Assembly (NCBI RefSeq): GCF_003385215.1
Contig: NZ_PQHW01000045.1
Span: 1 to 50,707, forward strand
DNA from: Amycolatopsis thermalba
GTDB lineage: Bacteria > Actinomycetota > Actinomycetes > Mycobacteriales > Pseudonocardiaceae
Length of the DNA stretch: 50,707 nt
Direction of reading: 5' to 3'
The number at the start of each line of letters is the position of its first letter. The first letter of the stretch is position 1. This document shows positions 14,653 to 38,791 of this stretch, piece after piece. Made by a program: the position numbers and the translations under genes. The notes under the pieces were generated by a model. It worked only from the letters and a program-made list of their open reading frames with translations, was not told where the DNA came from and made no database searches.

Positions 14653-15297
14653 CTAGTCTTTGTCGAGCCCGTGCTCGATCGCGTAGCGCGCCAGCTCCAC
14701 CCGGTTGTGCAGCTGCAGCTTCCGCAGCGTCGACTGCACGTGGTTCTCCACCGTCCGGTGCGACAACACCAGCCGCTCGGCGATCTGCCGCGCCGTCAGA
14801 CCCTTCGCGACCAGCCGCAGGACGTCGGTCTCCCGCTCGGTCAGCCGCGGCGGCGCCACCCCGCCCGCCGGCGCGGCCGCCATCCGCCGGTACTCGCCCA
14901 GCACCAGGCCGGCCAGCCCGGGCGTGAACACCGGGTCGCCCTCCGCGGTCCGCCGCACCGCCTCGACCAGCTCCGGCACCGACGCCGACTTCACCAGGTA
15001 CCCGGACGCCCCGGCCTTGACCGCCTCCAGCACGTCGCTGTGCTCACCGCTGGCCGACAACACCAGCACCCGGGTGTCCGGCAGCGACGTGGTGATCTCC
15101 CGCGTCGCGTCGACCCCGGAGGTGTTGCCCAGGTTCATGTCCATCAGCACGACGTCCGGCCGCACCGCGGTCGCGATGCGCACCGCGGCGGCGGCGTCCG
15201 GCGCGGTCGCCCGCACGTCGAACCCGTTCTCGGTCAGGTCGCGTGCCACGCCGTCCCGCCAGATCGGGTGGTCGTCGACGACCATCACGCTGATCAT
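14653..15297 (-). CDS. NarL/LuxR-type response regulator
   Basis: 214 residues. The receiver domain shows the acidic pair DD at 8-9, phospho-acceptor Asp53 in VVLMDMNLGN, and the conserved Lys in GYLVKSAS. The C-terminal LuxR-type helix-turn-helix is LTERETDVLRLVAKGLTARQ with IAERLVLSHRTVENH. It is the DNA-binding partner of the adjacent histidine kinase. The ATG at 15297 overlaps the kinase stop codon (ATGA); a longer frame upstream exists but lies inside the kinase gene and is not needed. Target genes are unknown. Confidence 0.92.
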   Translation of the reverse strand: MISVMVVDDHPIWRDGVARDLTENGFDVRATAPDAAAAVRIATAVRPDVVLMDMNLGNTSGVDATREITTSLPDTRVLVLSASGEHSDVLEAVKAGASGYLVKSASVPELVEAVRRTAEGDPVFTPGLAGLVLGEYRRMAAAPAGGVAPPRLTERETDVLRLVAKGLTARQIAERLVLSHRTVENHVQSTLRKLQLHNRVELARYAIEHGLDKD

Positions 15298-16430
15298 GTC
15301 CTCGGCACCCGGATCTCCCATTCGGTCCCCTGCCCTGGCGCGGTCTCCAGGGAGATCGTGCCACCGAGTTCGGTCACGCGTCCCCGTATCGAGTGAACAA
15401 CCCCCATCCGGCCCTCACTCTCCGCGTCCGCGAGCCGTCCCGCGGGGATGCCCGGGCCGTCGTCCCGCACGGTCACCACGACCTCACCGCCGACGTCCTC
15501 CAGCAACACCCACGCCTTGGCCGCCGGACCGGCGTGCTTGTCGACGTTGGACAGGGCCTCGCGGACCACGGCGACCAGCTCCGCGGTCGTCCGGGACGGC
15601 AGGTTCACCTCCCCCGCCGGCGCCGCGACCTGGACCTTCGACGATCCGAGCAGCTGCAGCGCGGCCCGCAGATCGGTCTCGCCGGTGCTGTGCCGCCGCG
15701 GCCCGGTGGTGACCAGGGCGCGCAGCGCGATCTCCTGCTCCCCGGCCAGTTCGGCGAGCTCGGCCGCCTCCCCGCCCAGTTCGGCGCCGCGCCGCCGGAC
15801 GCGCGCCAGCACCTGCAGGACGCTGTCGTGGATGTCGCGCGCCAGCCGTTCCCGCTCGGCGTTGGCGACCTCGGTGCGCAGCGCCTCGGCGAGCACGGCC
15901 GCCGACTTGCGCGCGGTCGACGCGCTCATGCCGATCAGCAGCCCGCTCGCGACCAGCAGCACACCGTCCCGCGCCACGTCGAGGGTGAACCCCTGCCGCG
16001 CGATCCCCGTCGCGGCCGCGATCACCAGGCCGGCGGCGACCCCGCCCACCCCGCCGAAGCGGGTGCCCGCCGCGACCGGCGCACCGGCCACCCACACGGT
16101 CGTGATCAGCGGGGCCACCGCCGCGTTCTGCTCGTCGGTCAGGATCCACGGCGAGGTCAGCATCAGGGCGCAGGTGACCAGCACGTCGGCGAAGACGAAC
16201 CACCGCCACCGCCACCGCAGCGCCTCCCGCGCGTAGACCAGGGCGGTCGCGACCGTCCACAGTGTCATCCCGCCGAGCACGGTCCAGGCCAGCCACGGAC
16301 GCTGGTAGCCGTCGTTGTGCACGATCACCGCGCCGACCGCGAACAGCAGCGTGAGCACGCGCAGGCCGATCGTGCCCCACCACAGCGGGGTGGCCGGTTC
16401 GCGCGCGGTGGGCCCGAACCGGCGGCTCAC
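15294..16430 (-). CDS. NarL-family (MacS-like) sensor histidine kinase
   Basis: 378 residues. About five N-terminal membrane helices (residues ~20-175) make up the sensor, with no large extracellular domain. The HisKA_3 dimerisation motif ERERLARDIHDSVLQVLARV places the phospho-accepting His near residue 200. The HATPase domain has the N-box VVREALSNVDKHA and G-box VRDDGPGIPAG. A short-loop membrane sensor like this often detects envelope stress, but the signal is not known. It is translationally coupled to both neighbours: its start overlaps the stop of the AI-2E permease gene and its stop overlaps the regulator start. Confidence 0.9.
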   Translation of the reverse strand: MSRRFGPTAREPATPLWWGTIGLRVLTLLFAVGAVIVHNDGYQRPWLAWTVLGGMTLWTVATALVYAREALRWRWRWFVFADVLVTCALMLTSPWILTDEQNAAVAPLITTVWVAGAPVAAGTRFGGVGGVAAGLVIAAATGIARQGFTLDVARDGVLLVASGLLIGMSASTARKSAAVLAEALRTEVANAERERLARDIHDSVLQVLARVRRRGAELGGEAAELAELAGEQEIALRALVTTGPRRHSTGETDLRAALQLLGSSKVQVAAPAGEVNLPSRTTAELVAVVREALSNVDKHAGPAAKAWVLLEDVGGEVVVTVRDDGPGIPAGRLADAESEGRMGVVHSIRGRVTELGGTISLETAPGQGTEWEIRVPRT

Positions 16431-17605
16431 GACTTGCCTGGGTCGCCGGGCTCCTCGTCCGCCTCGGCGGGATCGGCGTTGGGCACGGCCTCGATGTCGT
16501 GCAGGACGTCGACCTCGGCCGGGTCCGGGTCGACCTCGTGCAGCAGCGAGCGCACACCGGCGTTGACGATCGACATCAGCGGCACCGCAAGCAGCGCGCC
16601 CGGGATGCCGTAGACGATCAGGCCGGCGGCGATGCCGAGCACGACGGCCAGCGGGTGCAGCTTGACCGCGCGGCCGAGCAGCAGCGGCTGCAGGATGTGG
16701 CTCTCCAGCTGCATCACCGCGATGATGATGGCCAGCACGATCAGCGCGGTGACGAAACCCTTGGTGACCAGCGCGACCAGCACCGCGACCGCACCGGTGA
16801 TCACCGCGCCGAAGATCGGGATGAACGCGCCGATGAACACCAGCGTGGACAGCGGGATCGCGAGCGGGACGCCGAGGATCGCCAGCCCGATGCCGACGCC
16901 GACCGCGTCCACCACGGCGACCGCCGCGGTGGCGCGGACGAACGCGACCAGCGAGGCGAACCCGCGCCGGCCCGCGACGTCCACGCGGCGCCGGACCCGC
17001 TGCGGGATGCCCAGCGTCACCCAGCTCCAGATCTTGTCGCCGCCGGCGAGGAAGAAGATCAGGACGAACAGCGTCAGCACGAAGCCGGTGAGGATCTCGC
17101 CGACCGTGGTCGCCGTGGTGAGCGCGCTGTTGGTGAACGCCGCCTGGTTGTCCTGCAGGAAGCTGATCGAGTTGTCCAGGAACTGCTGGATCTGCTCCTG
17201 CTTGAGGTGCAGGTCGTTGATCAGCCAGTCCCGGATCTGGTTGAGGCTGTTGTTGACCTGGCTGGTCAGCGCGGGCAGGCCATCGGTGATGTTGATGACG
17301 ACGAACGCCAGCATCCCGCCCAGGACCGCGAGCCCGCCGATCAGCACGATCGCGGTCGCCAGCCCCCGCGGCACCCGGACCTGCACCAGCCGTGCCACCG
17401 CCGGGGCGAGCAGGGCCGCGAGCAGCAGCGCGATCGCGACCGGGATCACCACGACCGACAGGAAGGCGAGCAGCCGCAGGATGAGGTAGGCGGCCGCGGC
17501 CACCACGAGCAACCGCCAGCTGAATGCGGCGCTGACCCGGAGCCCGCGCGGGACGACCGAGTCGTCGCTGAGGAATCCGTATTTCGGAGGCTGCGGCTCA
17601 GTCAC
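16427..17605 (-). CDS. AI-2E family transporter (permease)
   Basis: 392 residues with a paired hydrophobic N-terminal segment, a central soluble region with amphipathic helices (residues ~95-150) and five or more C-terminal helices. The C-terminal signature GIPGALLAVPLMSIVNAGVR is typical of PF01594. Members include the TqsA autoinducer-2 exporter and Na+/H+ antiporters; most actinobacterial copies have no known substrate. It is the first gene of an operon with the two-component pair (4-bp overlap). The GTG at 17605 follows TAGGGT by 6 nt. Confidence 0.88.
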   Translation of the reverse strand: MTEPQPPKYGFLSDDSVVPRGLRVSAAFSWRLLVVAAAAYLILRLLAFLSVVVIPVAIALLLAALLAPAVARLVQVRVPRGLATAIVLIGGLAVLGGMLAFVVINITDGLPALTSQVNNSLNQIRDWLINDLHLKQEQIQQFLDNSISFLQDNQAAFTNSALTTATTVGEILTGFVLTLFVLIFFLAGGDKIWSWVTLGIPQRVRRRVDVAGRRGFASLVAFVRATAAVAVVDAVGVGIGLAILGVPLAIPLSTLVFIGAFIPIFGAVITGAVAVLVALVTKGFVTALIVLAIIIAVMQLESHILQPLLLGRAVKLHPLAVVLGIAAGLIVYGIPGALLAVPLMSIVNAGVRSLLHEVDPDPAEVDVLHDIEAVPNADPAEADEEPGDPGKS

Positions 17606-17617: not shown

Positions 17618-17759
17618 TCGAGCGGGACGAATACGGCAGCGCAACGCGCGGAAGCCGCGGCCGCGGGCGCAGCGTCACACGATCAGGCGCAAGTGCCGTC
17701 ATCGAGTCAGCGCAAGTTCCGACGGTATGTCAATCTTCGACCAAGATCGACGCTGCGTG

Positions 17760-17783
17760 ATCGCGCTGACCACCCAGCGCGAT
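17760..17783 (+). promoter_or_regulatory. Inverted repeat just upstream of the ribosome-binding site
   Basis: ATCGCGCT (17760-17767) and AGCGCGAT (17776-17783) are perfect inverted copies ending directly before GAGAGGAG, the likely ribosome-binding site of the gene at 17805. It could be an operator or an mRNA hairpin affecting translation. Confidence 0.35.
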
Positions 17784-17804
17784 GAGAGGAGTGGCAGCTT
17801 CTCC

Positions 17805-18545
17805 ATGACGCGACGGACCACGGCCGGGAACATCCTGGTGCGCGTACTGCTCGGCATCGCCGGGGCGTTCGCGGTCACCCTGGTGTCCTGGCTCGTCGCG
17901 TCGTCGGCGTCGGCGGACGAGGCGGTGCCGGATCCGCTGTCCCCCTTGCTCGGCCTGGTCGGTGGGACGACCGAGCCGGTGCACGACGTCGTGCGGCAGG
18001 TGACCGGGATCATCGCGCCGCCGCTGCGAACCGACCGGATCGTCGCTTCGGTGACCGGCACCACGCCGGTGTTCGCGGAACCGGTGCGGCCGCGGGCCGC
18101 CGGAACCACCCGGGCGAGCGCGCCGAAGCCGCCGCCGGCTGTGCCCGATCGCCGGGCCGCTCCGGTGCTGCCGCGAGTGCCGGAGCCGCCACCGGTTCCG
18201 CCGAAGGTCACCTCACCGGCGCCGCTCCCCGCGTCGGAACCCGCCCCGGTGCAGCCCGAACCCGCTGAGCCCAAACCGGTCGAACCCAAACCGGTCGAAC
18301 CCGGACCGGGCGCGCCCGAACCGGCGGCACCGGTGCACGGCGCCTGCGCGGCTCCGGTGCACGCCACGGACGCGGCCGGCGTCTGCCCGCTGCGCCCGGC
18401 GCCGCCGCCGATGCCGTTCGCCGTGGTCGCGGAATCCCATTCCGCCGACCGCGGATTCCTCCGGGCGGAACGCGTCCGAAAGTTTCCCGATCGATTTCCC
18501 GGCACGTCCGCACGACTTTTCCAACCGTTTCCCTTTGTGCCCTGA
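17805..18545 (+). CDS. Membrane-anchored or secreted proline-rich protein of the surface cluster
   Basis: 246 residues, not a recognised family. After MTRRTTAGN there is one hydrophobic helix (ILVRVLLGIAGAFAVTLVSW) ending in SSASADEA, which could be a cleaved signal or an anchor. Residues ~100-185 are Pro/Ala/Glu-rich with the tandem EPKPVEPKPVEPG, like a wall-spanning spacer. Two cysteines (GACAAPVHA and AGVCPLRP) lie in the C-terminal third. The N-terminal layout resembles the gene at 19712. ATG 17805 is preferred over ATG 17727 because the signal then starts normally and GAGAGGAG lies upstream. A role in the cell surface is inferred from export and neighbours. Confidence 0.65.
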   Translation: MTRRTTAGNILVRVLLGIAGAFAVTLVSWLVASSASADEAVPDPLSPLLGLVGGTTEPVHDVVRQVTGIIAPPLRTDRIVASVTGTTPVFAEPVRPRAAGTTRASAPKPPPAVPDRRAAPVLPRVPEPPPVPPKVTSPAPLPASEPAPVQPEPAEPKPVEPKPVEPGPGAPEPAAPVHGACAAPVHATDAAGVCPLRPAPPPMPFAVVAESHSADRGFLRAERVRKFPDRFPGTSARLFQPFPFVP

Positions 18546-18709: not shown

Positions 18710-19168
18710 ATGTTCAGCAAATTCCGCAAGACGACGGCCGCGGCGGTGCTGGTGGGGGCCGGCCTGCTCGCGATGGGTGTCTCCGGTGGGACGGCGTCGG
18801 CGGCGACCGGCGCGGAACCGTCCGGTCTGACCTGCCCCGCGCAGGTGCCTTCGCACCCGACGGGCGCCGATTACGTGAACGCGTGGAACCAGTCCGGGGC
18901 GTGCTTCGGCGCCGGTGCCGCGGGTCTGGTCAGCTCCGCCTGGGCGGGTGCGATCCCGTCGATCGTGCAGGGGGCGGCGGGTTCGGTCAGCGGCCGGGAG
19001 GACAGCGGGCTGACCGCGCCGGTGGTCGTCCCGTCCGACCCGACGGGCGCGGACTACGTCAATGCGTGGAACGAGTCCGGCGCGTTGGCGGGTGCGGGTG
19101 CCGCGGGTCTCGCCAGCTCCGCCTGGGCGGGTGCGATCCCGTCGATCGTCCAGGGCGCGCTCGGATAG
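18710..19168 (+). CDS. Small secreted protein with two copies of a 52-residue module
   Basis: 152 residues. A signal peptide (residues 1-31, ending GGTASAATG) is followed by two copies of one 52-residue module, residues 40-91 and 101-152. Shared features are the PTGADYVNAWN motif, an Ala/Gly-rich stretch GAGAAGL and the tail SSAWAGAIPSIVQGA. Copy 1 contains Cys42 and Cys65, both replaced in copy 2 (by Ala and Leu), which suggests a disulfide in copy 1 only. I do not recognise the family. Size, export and repeat design resemble small hydrophobic surface proteins such as chaplins, but the sequence differs. The ATG at 18710 follows AAAAGGAG; the longer upstream frame lacks a signal peptide at its start. 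Confidence 0.8.
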   Translation: MFSKFRKTTAAAVLVGAGLLAMGVSGGTASAATGAEPSGLTCPAQVPSHPTGADYVNAWNQSGACFGAGAAGLVSSAWAGAIPSIVQGAAGSVSGREDSGLTAPVVVPSDPTGADYVNAWNESGALAGAGAAGLASSAWAGAIPSIVQGALG

Positions 19169-19458
19169 CGCTTTCACCGGAACCGAACGCCCACAACGAA
19201 GGAGTGCAGATCATGAGCAGGACCCTGATGCGTGGCGCCGCCGCTCTCGCCATCGCCCTCGGCGCTTTCGCCTTCGCCGGTGGAACCGCGTCGGCGGACG
19301 AACTGACCGCCCCCGTCGTGGTGCCGTCGCACCCGACGGGTGCGGACTACGTGAACGCGTGGAACGAGTCCGGCGCGCTGGCCGGTGCCGGTGCCGCGGG
19401 TCTCGCCAGCTCCGCCTGGGCGGGTGCGATCCCGTCGATCGTCCAGGGCGCGCTGGGC
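18827..19458 (+). repeat. Three copies of a 156-bp module (52 residues) across two genes
   Basis: Copies lie at 18827-18982, 19010-19165 and 19303-19458, each exactly 156 bp. The last ~60 bp of copies 2 and 3, including GCCAGCTCCGCCTGGGCGGG, are practically identical, indicating recent duplication or gene conversion. Copy 1 is more diverged and is the only one with cysteines. Confidence 0.88.
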
Positions 19459-19461
19459 TGA
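19213..19461 (+). CDS. Small secreted protein with one copy of the 52-residue module
   Basis: 82 residues: a signal peptide (MSRTLMRGAAALAIALGAFA, then FAGGTASADE) and a single 52-residue module (residues 31-82), nearly identical to the second module of the preceding gene. There is no cysteine. The mature product would be about 54 residues, small, Ala/Gly-rich and moderately hydrophobic, with two Trp. The ribosome-binding site AAGGAGTGCA is the same as that of the preceding gene, showing that the whole unit including its leader was duplicated. The two genes are 44 bp apart and probably share a transcript, ended by two tandem hairpins. Function unknown. Confidence 0.82.
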   Translation: MSRTLMRGAAALAIALGAFAFAGGTASADELTAPVVVPSHPTGADYVNAWNESGALAGAGAAGLASSAWAGAIPSIVQGALG

Positions 19462-19711: not shown

Positions 19712-20668
19712 GTGTTGCAGGCGAACGCGGCCATGGGACGGGGTACGGCTTCGGCCGTGCGCTGGCTCGTCCGCGCCCTGCTCGTGATCGCCGGTGCCGT
19801 CCTGGGCACCACGGCCGCCTGGCTGATCGGCGACGCCACCGCCTCCGCCACCCAGCTCGCCCCCGCACCGGCGGACACCCGCACCAGCGGGGACGAGGCG
19901 ACCCCGGTCACCGACCGCGTGGTCACCGCGACCGACGACCTCACCTGGGGCGTCTCCGACCTGGTCGGCAACGCCACCGCCACCGCGCTGAAGTACGGCA
20001 TGGCCGGCGGCCCGGCGGACCCGGCCCGTGGCGAGGCCGCCGCGGCGGACCTGCGTCAGACGGTCCACTCGTTCACCCGCGACGCGGTGCTGCGTCCGGT
20101 CGAGCGCACCCTCGGCACCGCCGAGCACATCAGCCGCAAGCCGCAGGACGCGCCGCAGGTGATCGGCCAGGCGCTGACCCCGCCGCCCGCGGTCGCCGAG
20201 TTCGGCAACAAGGTGTGGGGTTTCCTGCACCCGGGCGGTAAGAGCCTGATCAAGTTGCCGGGCCTGCGTGGCTTCGACGACGCCGAGCAGTCGGCCGCGC
20301 TCCCCGCGGCCGACGTCCTGCCCGCCCCCGCAGCCGCGCCCGTGATGGGTCCGGTCGCGAAGGCGGTGCCGGACGTCCCGCACGGCGTGGTGTCCAAGGT
20401 CGGTCCGCACGACCGCGGCACCGACCGTTCCTCCGGCGACCAGCGGGACCAGTTCCCGTACTCGCCGCTGCGCGGACCGCTCGCACCCGCGGGTGTTCCG
20501 TTCGCCCCCGGTGGCGCTGTCACCGGTGGTCACATCGACGGCCTGCTGTTCGGCGTTCCCGCCGGCGGCCCGGCCGTGCGTGGTGTGGACGACCGCAGTG
20601 CCGTCCGCATCGTTTCCCGGCACACGCCGGTTCAGCCGGGCGAGCAGCCCGGTGTCACTCCTGACTGA
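19712..20668 (+). CDS. Membrane-anchored exported protein of the surface cluster
   Basis: 318 residues, family not recognised. One N-terminal hydrophobic segment (VRALLVIAGAVLGTTAAWLI) is followed by GDATASATQ, the same design as the gene at 17805. The middle holds helical, charged sequence (DDLTWGVSDLVGNATATALK; TRDAVLRPVERTLGTAEHI). The C-terminal ~120 residues are Ala/Pro-rich and end RHTPVQPGEQPGVTPD, with FPYSPLRGPLAPAGVPFAPG before it. GTG 19712 (or TTG 19715) is chosen because AGGAG lies just upstream; ATG 19733 would also leave the hydrophobic helix intact. There is no LPXTG motif. It sits between the small repeat proteins and the chaplin-like gene, so a role in organising that surface layer is a guess. 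Confidence 0.65.
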   Translation: MLQANAAMGRGTASAVRWLVRALLVIAGAVLGTTAAWLIGDATASATQLAPAPADTRTSGDEATPVTDRVVTATDDLTWGVSDLVGNATATALKYGMAGGPADPARGEAAAADLRQTVHSFTRDAVLRPVERTLGTAEHISRKPQDAPQVIGQALTPPPAVAEFGNKVWGFLHPGGKSLIKLPGLRGFDDAEQSAALPAADVLPAPAAAPVMGPVAKAVPDVPHGVVSKVGPHDRGTDRSSGDQRDQFPYSPLRGPLAPAGVPFAPGGAVTGGHIDGLLFGVPAGGPAVRGVDDRSAVRIVSRHTPVQPGEQPGVTPD

Positions 20669-20742
20669 TTTTCGCGCGGGGTAGCTCGAAGCGCCGCCCT
20701 GTTCGCCGTGCCCCTTCTTCGGACCGGCGTCGCGCGCACAGC

Positions 20743-20809
20743 CAGAGCACCCCGCTTTTTCCAGCCCTCGCGGGCTTCCTCACCCATGCCCGCGATCCCC
20801 GGTGCTCTG
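20743..20809 (+). other. Structured leader or terminator upstream of the chaplin-like gene
   Basis: CAGAGCACC (20743-20751) and GGTGCTCTG (20801-20809) are exact inverted copies enclosing a small inner hairpin AGCCC/GGGCT (20763-20776). It lies 57 bp before the chaplin-like ATG. I could not match it to a known riboswitch. Confidence 0.45.
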
Positions 20810-20865
20810 TCAGTGCACCGACTTCAAGCCCCGCAAGGGAACCCGAAGAAAAGGAGAAACCCTCG

Positions 20866-23769
20866 ATGCAGACCTGGGCAAAGCGCGGAATTCAGACCGC
20901 GCTGGTCACGGGTGGCTTGCTGATGCTGGGTACCGGCATCGCATCTGCCGACGAGAACGTCAACCCGGACAGTCCTGCCGGTCCGCTGGACGTCAACCTG
21001 AGCGTCCCGGTGAAGGTCCAGGACAACGCCCTGGGCACCCTGGGCAAGCAGGTCGACCTCCCTGAGGTCGACAAGGAGATCAGCACCAAGCCGGTCACCG
21101 GCGCGGTGAACAAGGCGGCCGCCCCGGTCACCAAGACCGGCGCGCTGAAGCCCGCCGCCCCGGCCATGGGCGCCGCCAACGGCGTCATCGCCAAGGCCAC
21201 CGACGCCGCCAGCGGTGCGGCGCAGCGCGTCGGCCAGGCGACCCACCCCGGTTCGCAGCGCGCCACCGTGGCGCAGGACGCCACCCCCTCGGTGCAGGAC
21301 AACGGTGACCCGTTCCACGGCAACAAGGTCTCGGGCAACATCGCCGTGCCGATCCTGATCAGCGGCAACGCCCTCGGCGTGCTGGGCGACGCGGCGGTCG
21401 AGTCCGACGCGACGCAGACCTACGAGCACGACTCGGACATCAACACCGACGGTTCGCACGGCGGTTTCGCCGGCAACGTCGTCGCGCTGGACTGGGCCGC
21501 ACCCATCCAGATCTCGGGCAACGCGCTCGGCCTGGTCGGCAGCGGCCACACCTCGGGCAGCGCGACGCAGGAGGCGTCGACCACCGGTGACATCGTCACC
21601 GACGGCACCAACGGCGGCCTGTCCGGCAACGTCGTCGCCCCGCAGGGCGCGACGCCGCTGCAGGTGTCGGGCAACGCCCTGGGCTGGTTCCTCGGCCACG
21701 CCGAGACCGACTTCGAAGGCTCCAGCGAGGCGGAGTCCGGCGGCTCGATCGAGACGCACGGTTCGAAGGGTGCGGGCACCGGTAACGTCGCCGGGATCCC
21801 GGTGGCGCTGCCCGCCAAGGTGTCCGGCAACGCCGTCTCCTGGGGTGGCGACGCCGACGTCCCGTCCGGCGCCTACGAGACCGAGGCCGAGGCCGGCGAC
21901 ACCAAGCCGGGCATGAACGACATCCCGACCTACATCCAGACCGACGGGGACGACTCGTTCCTGGCGGGCAACGTCGCGCAGCCGCAGCCCGCGGTTCCGG
22001 CGACCGTCGCGGGCAACGCCGCGGCCTGGATCGGAAACTCGCTCGTCGGCGGCGGCGCGGACCGCCAGGGCGGCGGCGTGGACCTCGGCAGCGACGCGCA
22101 GGCCGGTGGCTTCACCAGCACCAGCGGTGAGGACGCGGCCGGTTCCGGCAACATCGCCGACGCGCCCGTCGCGCTCCCGGTCGAGGCGTTCTGCGTCGGC
22201 GGGACCTGGATCGGCAACGCGCACGCCAGCGGCTGCGACAACGACGTCGAGGCCGAGGCCGGCTCGGGCACCTACACCACCGGCAACGGCTCGTTCCTCG
22301 GCGGCAACACCGTGTCCGCCCCGCCCGCGGGCACCGTCGAGGTGTTCGGCGTCGGCGGCTCGTGGATCGGCAACGCCTCGGGCAGCGCGACCGAGACCAA
22401 GGACGTCAAGGCCGGCGGGTATAACGGCAGCCAGGGCAACGACTCCACCGGCTCGGGCAACGTCGTGCAGACCCCGGTGGCCCTGCCCGCCGAGGTCTTC
22501 GGTGTCGGCGGGTCGTGGATCGGTCAGGGCGCCGGGGAGGCGTCCGAGACCAAGACCGTGACCTCCGGTGGCGGCGGCAACACCCAGGACGACAACGCCG
22601 CGGCCAGCGCGAACCTGGTCCAGGTGCCGGTTTCGGCGCCGGTGCAGGCGTTCGGCATCGGTGGCGCGTGGATCGGCCAGGGCTCCGGCGCGGCCACCAC
22701 CGACACCACCTCGACGGCGGGTGGCATCGGCCACGCGACCGGTAAGGGCGGCTTCCTGTCCGGCAACATCGGCGCGGCGCCGGTGTCGCTGCCCGCGCAG
22801 GTGCACGGCATCGGCGGGGCGTGGATCGGCAACGGCTTCGGCGAGTCGGAGAACGTGACCGACTCGACCGCGGGTGGCGACCTGTCCACTACCGGTGAGG
22901 GTGGCTCGATCGCGGGCAACATCGTCGAGGCGCCGGTCGGCGCCGTGGCCACCGTCTTCGGTGACGCCGCGGTGTGGGGCGGCGTGGTCAAGGGCGTCGC
23001 GTCCAACGACGTCGTGTCGACCGCGGGCGGCGACGCCGAGACCAACGGTGAGGGCGGCTCGATCGCCGGCAACGTGGTCGCGGCCCAGCTGCTGCCGGTG
23101 GCCCAGGTCTTCGGCAACGCCGCGAGCCTGGTCGGTGTCGCGCACGCGGCCGGTGTGAACAGCACCGAGGCCAACTCGGGTGGCGACATCACCACCTCGG
23201 GCGAGGGTGGCGCGCTGTCCGGCGACATCTTCGACGTCCCGGCCGCGGCCGTGGCGCAGGTGTTCGGCAACGCCGTCTCGCTGGGCGGTGTCGCGCACGC
23301 GTTCGCCGACAACACCACGGTCGGCACCGTGGGCGGCACGGACACCACGTCCGGCCCGGCCAAGGCCCTGTCCGGGATCACCAAGCAGGTTCCGGTCGGC
23401 GTCGTCGCCCAGGTCTACGACATCCCGCTGGGCCTGATCGCGGTCACCAGCACGACGGTGCGCAACGCGACGGACATCTCGGTCGCCGGCCAGGAGCCGC
23501 AGATCGACCTGCCGATCACGATGCCGGAGATGGGCGCCACCGCCCTGCCGAAGCTGCCGGCGCTGCCCGCCCGCGCGGAGCGCTCCGCGCTGCCGGCCGA
23601 GCTGCCGGGTGCGGGCCTGCCCGAGCTGCCCGAGCTGCCGACGAGCGTCGAGGGCGTGCTGCCCACCGGCGACGTCCCGGCCATCGCGCAGCTGGACTCC
23701 AACCCGACCGCCGTCTTCGAGCAGGTCAGCGACCTGGTCAGCGGCAAGGGGATCAACATCAAGGGCTGA
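20866..23769 (+). CDS. Giant secreted protein with about 14 chaplin-like repeats
   Basis: 967 residues. A signal peptide (ending GIASADENV, residues ~1-29) closely resembles chaplin leaders. Residues ~30-150 are Ala/Pro-rich. From ~154 to ~870 there are about 14 repeats of ~50 residues with the core SGN-V-V-x-x-P-V-x-x-P-x-x-V-x-G-N-A-x-x-[IL]-G, matching the chaplin domain of Streptomyces (SGNVVQVPVHVPVN then GN). Clear examples are TGSGNVVQTPVALPAEVFG and AASANLVQVPVSAPVQAFG. Gly/Thr-rich polar linkers separate the repeats. Only one repeat keeps a Cys pair (AFCVGGTWIGNAHASGC). The C-terminal ~95 residues are Leu/Pro/Glu-rich without LPXTG. Chaplins self-assemble into amyloid-like films coating aerial hyphae; known long chaplins have only two such domains. 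AAAAGGAG precedes ATG 20866. Confidence 0.82.
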   Translation: MQTWAKRGIQTALVTGGLLMLGTGIASADENVNPDSPAGPLDVNLSVPVKVQDNALGTLGKQVDLPEVDKEISTKPVTGAVNKAAAPVTKTGALKPAAPAMGAANGVIAKATDAASGAAQRVGQATHPGSQRATVAQDATPSVQDNGDPFHGNKVSGNIAVPILISGNALGVLGDAAVESDATQTYEHDSDINTDGSHGGFAGNVVALDWAAPIQISGNALGLVGSGHTSGSATQEASTTGDIVTDGTNGGLSGNVVAPQGATPLQVSGNALGWFLGHAETDFEGSSEAESGGSIETHGSKGAGTGNVAGIPVALPAKVSGNAVSWGGDADVPSGAYETEAEAGDTKPGMNDIPTYIQTDGDDSFLAGNVAQPQPAVPATVAGNAAAWIGNSLVGGGADRQGGGVDLGSDAQAGGFTSTSGEDAAGSGNIADAPVALPVEAFCVGGTWIGNAHASGCDNDVEAEAGSGTYTTGNGSFLGGNTVSAPPAGTVEVFGVGGSWIGNASGSATETKDVKAGGYNGSQGNDSTGSGNVVQTPVALPAEVFGVGGSWIGQGAGEASETKTVTSGGGGNTQDDNAAASANLVQVPVSAPVQAFGIGGAWIGQGSGAATTDTTSTAGGIGHATGKGGFLSGNIGAAPVSLPAQVHGIGGAWIGNGFGESENVTDSTAGGDLSTTGEGGSIAGNIVEAPVGAVATVFGDAAVWGGVVKGVASNDVVSTAGGDAETNGEGGSIAGNVVAAQLLPVAQVFGNAASLVGVAHAAGVNSTEANSGGDITTSGEGGALSGDIFDVPAAAVAQVFGNAVSLGGVAHAFADNTTVGTVGGTDTTSGPAKALSGITKQVPVGVVAQVYDIPLGLIAVTSTTVRNATDISVAGQEPQIDLPITMPEMGATALPKLPALPARAERSALPAELPGAGLPELPELPTSVEGVLPTGDVPAIAQLDSNPTAVFEQVSDLVSGKGINIKG

Positions 23770-37870: not shown

Positions 37871-38791
37871 CTACGACAGTTTGCGCAGCACCCAGGTCCG
37901 GACCAGCGCGGCGCTCACGCCGGCCAGCGCGACGACCGCCAGCAGCATCGGCAGCTGGACGTTGCCCGCGGCCGGTTCACCGCCGATCGCGCTGGCGTTG
38001 CCCGCGTTGCGGACGTCGGCCTGGCCGCCTGCCGAGGTGGACTGGCCGCCCAGCACGCCGACCTGCGGCAGCGCCTGGTCGGGCAGCGTGGCGGAGGACG
38101 GGTAGAGCGCGCTCGGCGGCACCGCGACGCCGGCCACACCGGGGACGGCGGCCGGGATGTTGCCGTAGTTGCGCGGCGGGGCGGTGGCCGAACCGGTGCC
38201 CGCGATGCCCGGGCTGGTCGCGGTCGGCGAGGTTCCGGGCGCGGGCGTGGCCCCGCCGGGCTGCTGCGTGGCGGGGAGGCCGGGCTGGGTGTAGTTGTTC
38301 GCGTAGGTGGTCAGCCCGCAGTTGCCGGCGACCTTGTTGGAGATCGAGTCGAGGGTCTTCTTCTGCTGGTCGGCGCCGATGCCGAGGCCGACGGCGTACG
38401 GGTCGCCCGCGTTCTTCAGCGTGGTCGCGACGGCGGTGGCGATGGCGTCACCGCCGATCGTGCCGCTGGCCGCGTTCGCCGGGATCTGCCCGACGGTGAT
38501 CGCGCCGGCCTTGCTGACCGTGTCCGCGATCTTCTGCGGGTCCACGCCGTTGAGGTGCAGGAACCACTCCTGCTCCTGCGCGCCGGCCTTGACCACGCCC
38601 GCGAGGTCCTTGCCCTGCACGGCGACGCTGTCGCTGAGGGCGCCGATCACGGTGCCGGTGCACGCCTGCGACAGCACGGTGCTCGCCGACGCGGTCCCCG
38701 CCGTCAGGAGCGAGCCGCCGGCGATGGCCGCGGCGACGGCGGCGACGGTCAGCGCTCTACGGGTGGTCTTCATCAGGCTGGTGTTGCGCAC
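37871..38791 (-). CDS. Exported protein with C-terminal membrane tail, paralogue 1 of 3
   Basis: 306 residues. Signal peptide (ALTVAAVAAAIAGGSLLTAG then TASAS) and a folded, largely helical N-terminal domain (~30-165) with two cysteines (QACTGTV and GNCGLTT). A Pro/Ala/Gly-rich region follows with PPRNYGNIPAAVPGV, then the C-terminal anchor VQLPMLLAVVALAGVSAALV with RTWVLRKLS. The tail and the RNY motif are shared with the next gene, and the tail with the third. Family not recognised. GTG 38791 is preferred over ATG 38773 because GGAGG lies 9 nt upstream. Confidence 0.75.
   Translation of the reverse strand: MRNTSLMKTTRRALTVAAVAAAIAGGSLLTAGTASASTVLSQACTGTVIGALSDSVAVQGKDLAGVVKAGAQEQEWFLHLNGVDPQKIADTVSKAGAITVGQIPANAASGTIGGDAIATAVATTLKNAGDPYAVGLGIGADQQKKTLDSISNKVAGNCGLTTYANNYTQPGLPATQQPGGATPAPGTSPTATSPGIAGTGSATAPPRNYGNIPAAVPGVAGVAVPPSALYPSSATLPDQALPQVGVLGGQSTSAGGQADVRNAGNASAIGGEPAAGNVQLPMLLAVVALAGVSAALVRTWVLRKLS

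Follow-up and report, generated by a model that had tools for sequence, protein, structure and literature searches.

Streptomyces species build a water-repellent coat from chaplin domains that are polymerised into amyloid. What a chain holding many such domains might build in another actinomycete is the question raised by a stretch of 50,707 nucleotides from Amycolatopsis thermalba (contig NZ_PQHW01000045.1 of assembly GCF_003385215.1, the whole of which is called the window here), in which an ATG-started open frame at 20866..23769 on the forward strand encodes a giant multi-chaplin-like protein of 967 residues, P0001. We propose, with confidence that is evenly balanced, that P0001 is a ready-made amphipathic surface rod, that is, a covalent stack of chaplin domains folded as one beta-solenoid that would coat the hyphal surface. 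P0001 and its long relatives, referred to below as the giants, make up a family, conserved and under-described, of long proteins derived from chaplins, and are best read as covalent stacks of chaplin rungs.

Is the repeat array of P0001 really made of chaplin domains? The Pfam family PF03777 (ChpA-C) matched the whole protein at E=4.3e-11 and 42.9 bits, against a curated cut-off of 21, with eight stretches at E<=10; one stretch scored in the context of the protein reached 25.4 bits. A hidden Markov model (HMM) made from 32 chaplin domains scored 35.8 bits, where the top of 1000 composition-preserving shuffles was 9.4, and marked 15 stretches in the protein. Fourteen of these fell one per unit in a single register (the top at 16.2 bits, several below 3 bits), and the other lay outside the array at residues 76-97 with -3.5 bits. 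When 931 units taken from 72 proteins were combined into a profile and aligned to the chaplin profile with hhalign, a probability of 93.7% (E=1.9e-7) was obtained over 40 chaplin columns (7-46 of 57), the top probability among 40 column-shuffled controls being 1.55%. With P0001 as the query, multi-domain chaplins of other families were matched as well, namely those of genomes G332 (E=3e-15, eight chaplin units), G348 (E=5e-7, four) and G237 (E=8e-4, four). On sequence evidence the array and the chaplin domain are homologous, as had been claimed in a first-pass annotation of this DNA. That annotation had also suggested searching each repeat separately, and had named a lack of any match to the chaplin profile, or a clearly different predicted fold, as the outcome that would speak against it. 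At the level of sequence this outcome did not occur. When the units were excised singly, six of the 14 gave a sub-threshold match to PF03777 (top 20.6 bits); none passed the cut-off, which family membership does not formally demand of single units, and eight gave no match.

The array (residues 152-876, 21319..23493, forward strand, 67% strand in the structural model) consists of 14 tandem units whose boundaries were placed by hand. In order they measure 49, 51, 51, 62, 60, 52, seven times 51, and 43 residues, with nine at exactly 51, in agreement with the 14 or so units of about 50 residues that had been noticed at first. The core SGN-hydrophobic-PV-hydrophobic-(C)GN is shared with the Streptomyces chaplins ChpA-H (PF03777). 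A second GN placed 15 residues past the first, a criterion taken from PMC13251363, was seen by eye in units 2, 3, 4, 5 and 12 (5 of 14); the remaining units frequently keep just the G of the second GN, and a third GN, if present, is displaced (WIGN). At E<=10 Pfam returned for P0001 solely ChpA-C and one sub-threshold beta-solenoid family. Many relatives are named 'PE-PGRS' or 'beta strand repeat-containing' in one source; PE-PGRS membership was rejected, there being no N-terminal PE domain. No other PF03777 match was found at E<=0.001 in the window's own genome, and none was found in 14 control genomes, which thus serve as negatives only.

The cysteines provide another line of comparison. P0001 has two, C443 and C457, both within unit 6 (22138..22293, forward strand), where they form the sole pair (C-x13-C), and the near-absence of cysteine reported in the first reading was correct. 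In the alignment of 72 proteins (P0001 and 71 relatives) unit 6 carried both cysteines in 39, neither in 33 and just one in none; the unit 1 pair was complete in 16 and absent in 56, the unit 4 pair was complete in eight, and no mature protein had exactly one cysteine. The first cysteine stood at the chaplin CGN position in 12 of the 72 proteins for unit 6 and in 11 for unit 1, and one residue later in 27 and 5, respectively. The spacing in unit 6 was 14 (C-x13-C) in 34 of the 39 pairs. In the giant set, which comprises P0001 and the 120 best-scoring listed relatives under a length limit, the relatives had 109 close pairs, 63 of them at spacing 14, 20 at 15 and 12 at 17. Among 826 close pairs in multi-domain chaplins from other families, 694 likewise had a spacing of 14, the commonest there, and all of 28 chaplin domains examined for spacing 18 had it, 27 of them from one genus, presumably Streptomyces. 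Taken from these alignments, the cysteine pairs are an independent link of the giants to chaplins. Two cysteines per domain do not strictly define a chaplin, as ChpE is described without them in PMC5618241; in P0001 they were found in one of the 14 units.

The first-pass annotation had taken chaplins to be limited to one or two domains. This proved too narrow, as proteins of 6-10 units, named 'chaplin family protein', are common in Nonomuraea, Actinomadura, Microbispora and their kin; chaplins of many domains are no novelty as a kind and already have names in databases. For comparison with the giants we used 120 listed of the 462 proteins found with a 10-unit protein of genome G040 as query, and many, not all, of these 120 are called chaplin family, DUF320 or small secreted domain proteins. 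Both groups have tandem chaplin units, cysteine pairs that are chiefly C-x13-C, and a common [MV]xxWAK signal start (88 of 120 multi-domain chaplins, 109 of 120 giants). They differ in the median chaplin HMM score (171 bits in multi-domain chaplins versus 20 in giants), in the median number of cysteines (14 versus 2), in the number of units (eight above 10 bits in 97 of 120, versus 14) and in a C-terminal membrane-like segment, which was found in 110 of 120 multi-domain chaplins and in one of 120 giants. The simplest history, drawn from these comparisons and not from a tree, would make the giant a descendant of an anchored, disulfide-rich array that gained units and lost cysteines and anchor. 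P0001 is, on the same comparisons, a derived form with more units, one cysteine pair, no anchor and a fixed length. Streptomyces chaplins, which have one or two domains and, presumably, a cysteine spacing of 18, are likewise set apart from P0001 with its 14 units and spacing of 14; unlike them, P0001 has no LNPAFGN segment and no sortase signal, and has an extra acidic spacer that corresponds to the long strand described below.

Is the number of units free to vary? Variable repeat number had been anticipated in related genomes, but 14 units were counted in 103 of the 121 giants, 15 in 17 and 12 in one (counts in which threshold effects and partial records are not separated), and strong variability was rejected. 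Compared unit by unit, orthologous units were 49-70% identical to those of P0001, versus a mean of 32% over all pairs of units within the one protein (29-53% for neighbours), and a five-unit stretch had a constant length of 255 residues in 15 of 15 aligned sequences. Because the count is near-fixed, the units are conserved by position and the five-unit length is constant, unit number and order are constrained, unlike those of hypervariable surface repeats. The repeats are under purifying selection, with a ratio of nonsynonymous to synonymous substitution rates (dN/dS) of 0.30-0.45 in four comparisons with relatives. Recent expansion or slippage of the array was rejected, since Tandem Repeats Finder detected no DNA-level tandem repeats in the gene. 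Judged by such comparisons, the P0001-type array is old and nearly fixed.

What shape would 14 such units take? With 72 sequences AlphaFold2 gave a model with a mean predicted local distance difference test score (pLDDT) of 81.7, a predicted template modelling score (pTM) of 0.78 and 611 residues at a pLDDT of at least 90. The array was modelled as a confident beta-solenoid, with most of residues 151-870 scoring more than 90 and a lower stretch (72-79) at 391-410, and residues 41-70 formed a separate beta piece. The strand pattern was similar in each unit, with two short strands, a turn at GN, a third strand, a long strand and a short strand. Of 26 GN dipeptides, 20 coincided with a break between strands, where non-strand positions overall were 33%, and GN is also placed at turns in chaplins in PMC13251363. 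The ranges over which the model was aligned to beta-helix targets suggest one rung per unit. Along the long strand, columns 28, 30, 32, 38 and 40 were at most 1% charged and the odd columns 29-39 were 14-38% charged (seven units in 72 proteins); which of its columns face inward is inferred.

The two halves of the unit are of opposite character. The first 26 residues of the P0001 units, the core, had a mean hydropathy of +0.85 with 11 acidic and three basic residues in 364, and the remaining spacer half, with 57 acidic and 10 basic residues in 361, had a mean of -0.70. The core was more hydrophobic than the spacer in 99.9% of 1008 unit instances, and the hydropathy contrast of units 7-13 was 1.57, a value that none of 1000 shuffles reached even at its best phase (maximum 1.19). 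Strands 1-3 are mostly hydrophobic on both faces, save for the polar columns 8 and 16. If the units are stacked in register, the resulting rod would be oily along one strip and acidic along another.

It is possible to picture how such a protein might work. P0001 carries 14 diverged chaplin domains. Its single chain, likely secreted, would fold, as predicted by AlphaFold2, into a continuous beta-solenoid with likely one rung per domain, so that a hydrophobic and a hydrophilic strip would run along the full length of the rod. The hydrophobic strip (strands 1-3) may be turned toward the air or toward neighbouring rods, and the acidic, Ser/Thr/Gly-rich strip toward the wall. The stack of chaplin rungs, which in Streptomyces is polymerised as amyloid, would here be covalent within one chain. 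P0001 might in this way take the place of classical chaplins in the host lineage and lie on the hyphal surface as a preformed coat element. A further step, about which we are doubtful, is that the 14 fused rungs make up a single-molecule amyloid fibre, length-defined, capped and amphipathic, the model of which would reveal the stacking of chaplin domains in Streptomyces amyloid (one domain per rung, with GN turns) and which would form the main coat of filamentous actinomycetes that have no classical chaplins.

Several observations weigh against the preformed rod. The first-pass annotation had suggested a different kind of surface structure; a single-chain beta-solenoid was indeed predicted for the whole protein, whereas an isolated five-unit fragment, modelled from 15 sequences, reached a pLDDT of 66 and a pTM of 0.61 only. 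A Foldseek search of the PDB gave no match for the model at E<=0.001. AlphaFold2 builds unrealistic solenoids from perfect repeats, according to PMC11795689, and although the units of P0001 are only about 32% identical this bias may act here too. In the long strand the alternation is broken by columns 34 and 36, which were 27-28% charged. The chaplin HMM reached E<1e-3 in 81 of the 121 giants, the similarity being weak in many relatives, and was silent at E<=10 in 12 of the 120 listed; of four relatives submitted to Pfam, two were above the cut-off, one was below it and one had no match. Conservation within the array is lowest in units 5 and 14. Not every cysteine has an obvious partner, as the number was odd in 13 of the 72 proteins and unit 4 had just one in five of them. 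P0001 is also not universal, since no match at E<=0.001 was found in 79 of 297 family genomes and in one of 19 same-genus genomes, a draft of 900 contigs. Finally, attachment to the surface is an assumption, as P0001 is without the sortase anchor of the long chaplins.

The alternative that survives best sees in P0001 a many-domain chaplin of the ordinary amyloid kind, whose chains would polymerise with one another through cross-beta contacts into rodlet-like fibres as in Streptomyces. We regard this as somewhat unlikely. The identity and the position of each unit are kept across species, a pattern easier to reconcile with stacking inside one molecule than with units that polymerise interchangeably, and the strong acidity of the spacer half (57 acidic versus 10 basic residues) also counts against it. 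Less probable again, and in our opinion unlikely, is that P0001 is no hydrophobic coat and serves as an adhesin or matrix protein of beta-helix form, with sugars, wall polymers or other cells bound by its outer faces. The adhesins antigen 43 and EtpA are long beta-solenoids like the P0001 model, and the aligned ranges suggest about one target rung per 51-residue unit of P0001; their identity to P0001 is about 9%, and their coils are of about 20-25 residues. Curli CsgA, with repeats of about 22 residues, likewise shares with P0001 the idea of a tandem-repeat solenoid rung, and among solved chains it was the second-ranked match to the fragment model, itself of low confidence, at a root-mean-square deviation of 8.3 A. 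A sequence search with P0001 found no PDB chain, neither the beta-helix adhesins nor CsgA. It is very unlikely that the solenoid is an AlphaFold2 artefact and the chain a flexible low-complexity Gly/Ala-rich repeat or a series of separate small hairpins serving as an elastic matrix polymer, an explanation that gains from the solenoid bias of the program, from the lower confidence of the five-unit fragment and from AlphaFold models of long chaplins with large disordered regions and a few beta clusters (PMC13251363), but that fits poorly with the inside/outside alternation over most of the long strand, with five units unchanged in length in 15 sequences and with cysteines that occur in pairs.

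How widely are P0001 and its relatives distributed? A search for relatives gave a match in 37 of 61 genomes, some through the signal region alone, and 18 of 19 genomes of the same genus matched P0001 (its own included). The named close relatives are from Amycolatopsis and Prauserella, at 14 loci, the nearest being that of A. deserti at 91%. In a sample of the host family, with two candidates scored per genome, P0001 was matched at E<=0.001 in 218 of 297 genomes. By hand count 163 of these 218 had strong relatives (<1e-50) and the remaining 55 had weaker ones; in the five of those 55 that were shared with the 61-genome search, the match was confined to residues 1-56. PF03777 was found in 112 of the 297 family genomes, most of the matches listed being in frames of more than 700 residues. 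In a sample of the class, P0001 found 32 of 296 genomes.

Other chaplin-like proteins were encountered during these searches. Three family genomes carry short chaplins (L076 at 80 bits, L077 at 76 and L078 at 43), which were possibly acquired by horizontal transfer. Ten proteins from outside (L074, L075 and L104-L111) had four to nine stretches matched by the chaplin HMM, mostly strong and weak in L105, L107 and L110. Of these, L111, L107 and L110 (family f51) have chaplin-like arrays in which seven to nine stretches were matched; cysteine is absent from L110 and L111, and the C-terminus of L107 is a sortase-like signal with a membrane segment.

On either side of the array P0001 has distinct parts. 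A putative signal peptide was read from the sequence at residues 1-28 (MQTWAKRG...GTGIASA; 20866..20949, forward strand), the N-terminus being signal-like by eye, with MQTWAKRG followed by a hydrophobic stretch and then ASA. The longer pattern MQTWAKRG(I/L/V)..ALVTGG (20866-20985) is more conserved than the mature protein; residues 1-40 had a mean identity of 92% across the 71 relatives, versus the 49-70% of the units. A similar signal start opens four repeat-free frames of about 500-590 residues in other genera (L094, L095, L096 and L099). Because it is conserved to this degree and is present on repeat-free frames of other genera, the start may be a sorting signal. It is followed by an N-terminal half-unit or cap at residues 41-73 (20986..21084, forward strand), with beta structure and a pLDDT of 85-91 for residues 41-70, and by a disordered linker at residues 84-146 (21115..21303, forward strand), with a pLDDT below 50 and 35% identity over residues 81-151. 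The Pro/Leu-rich tail, residues 877-967 (23494..23766, forward strand), has mostly low pLDDT, no membrane anchor and no Pfam match; its C-terminus has no transmembrane-like window (hydropathy maximum there 0.75), and no sortase motif of the LPxTG/LAxTG type was read by eye in the last 60 residues. A sortase-type C-terminal motif was found in two of the 120 listed giant relatives. In P0052 and P0096 the C-terminal tails are longer by hundreds of residues and have LPTD/LLGGG-type repeats. A scan of 20600-20900 found no promoter or terminator, a result that tells little in an actinomycete.

Upstream of the giant gene lie several genes for secreted-looking proteins. The nearest, upB (19715..20668, forward strand), encodes 317 residues, is secreted or membrane-anchored by appearance and has no Pfam match. 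It was detected in 21 of the 61 genomes (its own included), in all 21 about 150-225 bp upstream of the giant gene, and in 12 of the 14 named syntenic loci; 16 of the P0001-matching genomes among the 61 had no detected upB. Our guess is that upB is an anchor or export partner of the giant. Two small secreted-looking proteins, small1 (18710..19168, forward strand, two units of about 50 residues, no Pfam family above the cut-off) and small2 (19213..19461, forward strand, one such unit, no Pfam match), are each present at seven of the 14 syntenic loci. They share the unit VPSHPTGADYVNAWNESGA...AIPSIVQGALG, with a cysteine pair in one of the two, and small2 has 42 relatives, none functionally named among the matches listed. 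The small flanking proteins and upB gave no match to ChpA-C in the Pfam scan. Further upstream, upA (17727..18545, forward strand), Pro-rich, secreted-looking and with no Pfam match, is present at three of the 14 loci, and a conserved flank on the reverse strand (14653..17605) holds a response regulator, a histidine kinase and an AI-2E-type permease by Pfam, each at 14 of 14 loci. Another secreted-looking protein, of 306 residues and no Pfam family, is encoded at 37871-38791 on the reverse strand.

What would such a protein mean for the organism? No literature on proteins of this kind in the host family was found by title or abstract start among open-licence PMC articles, a search that leaves their absence unproven. 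A search of PDB sequences with one chaplin domain turned up no solved chaplin structure with which the predicted fold could be compared. If rung and unit correspond one to one, the structure of the chaplin cross-beta unit could be had from a soluble protein of a single chain. As a material, P0001 would also offer an amphipathic protein rod of defined length. In the available part of PMC4255298, Chater and Chandra placed chaplin-like genes in streptomycetes, in their near relatives and in a few further genera, and named no member of the host family. As about half of the sampled family genomes (163 of 297) hold strong relatives of P0001, this protein is a direct candidate for the coat of aerial hyphae in Amycolatopsis and its kin.

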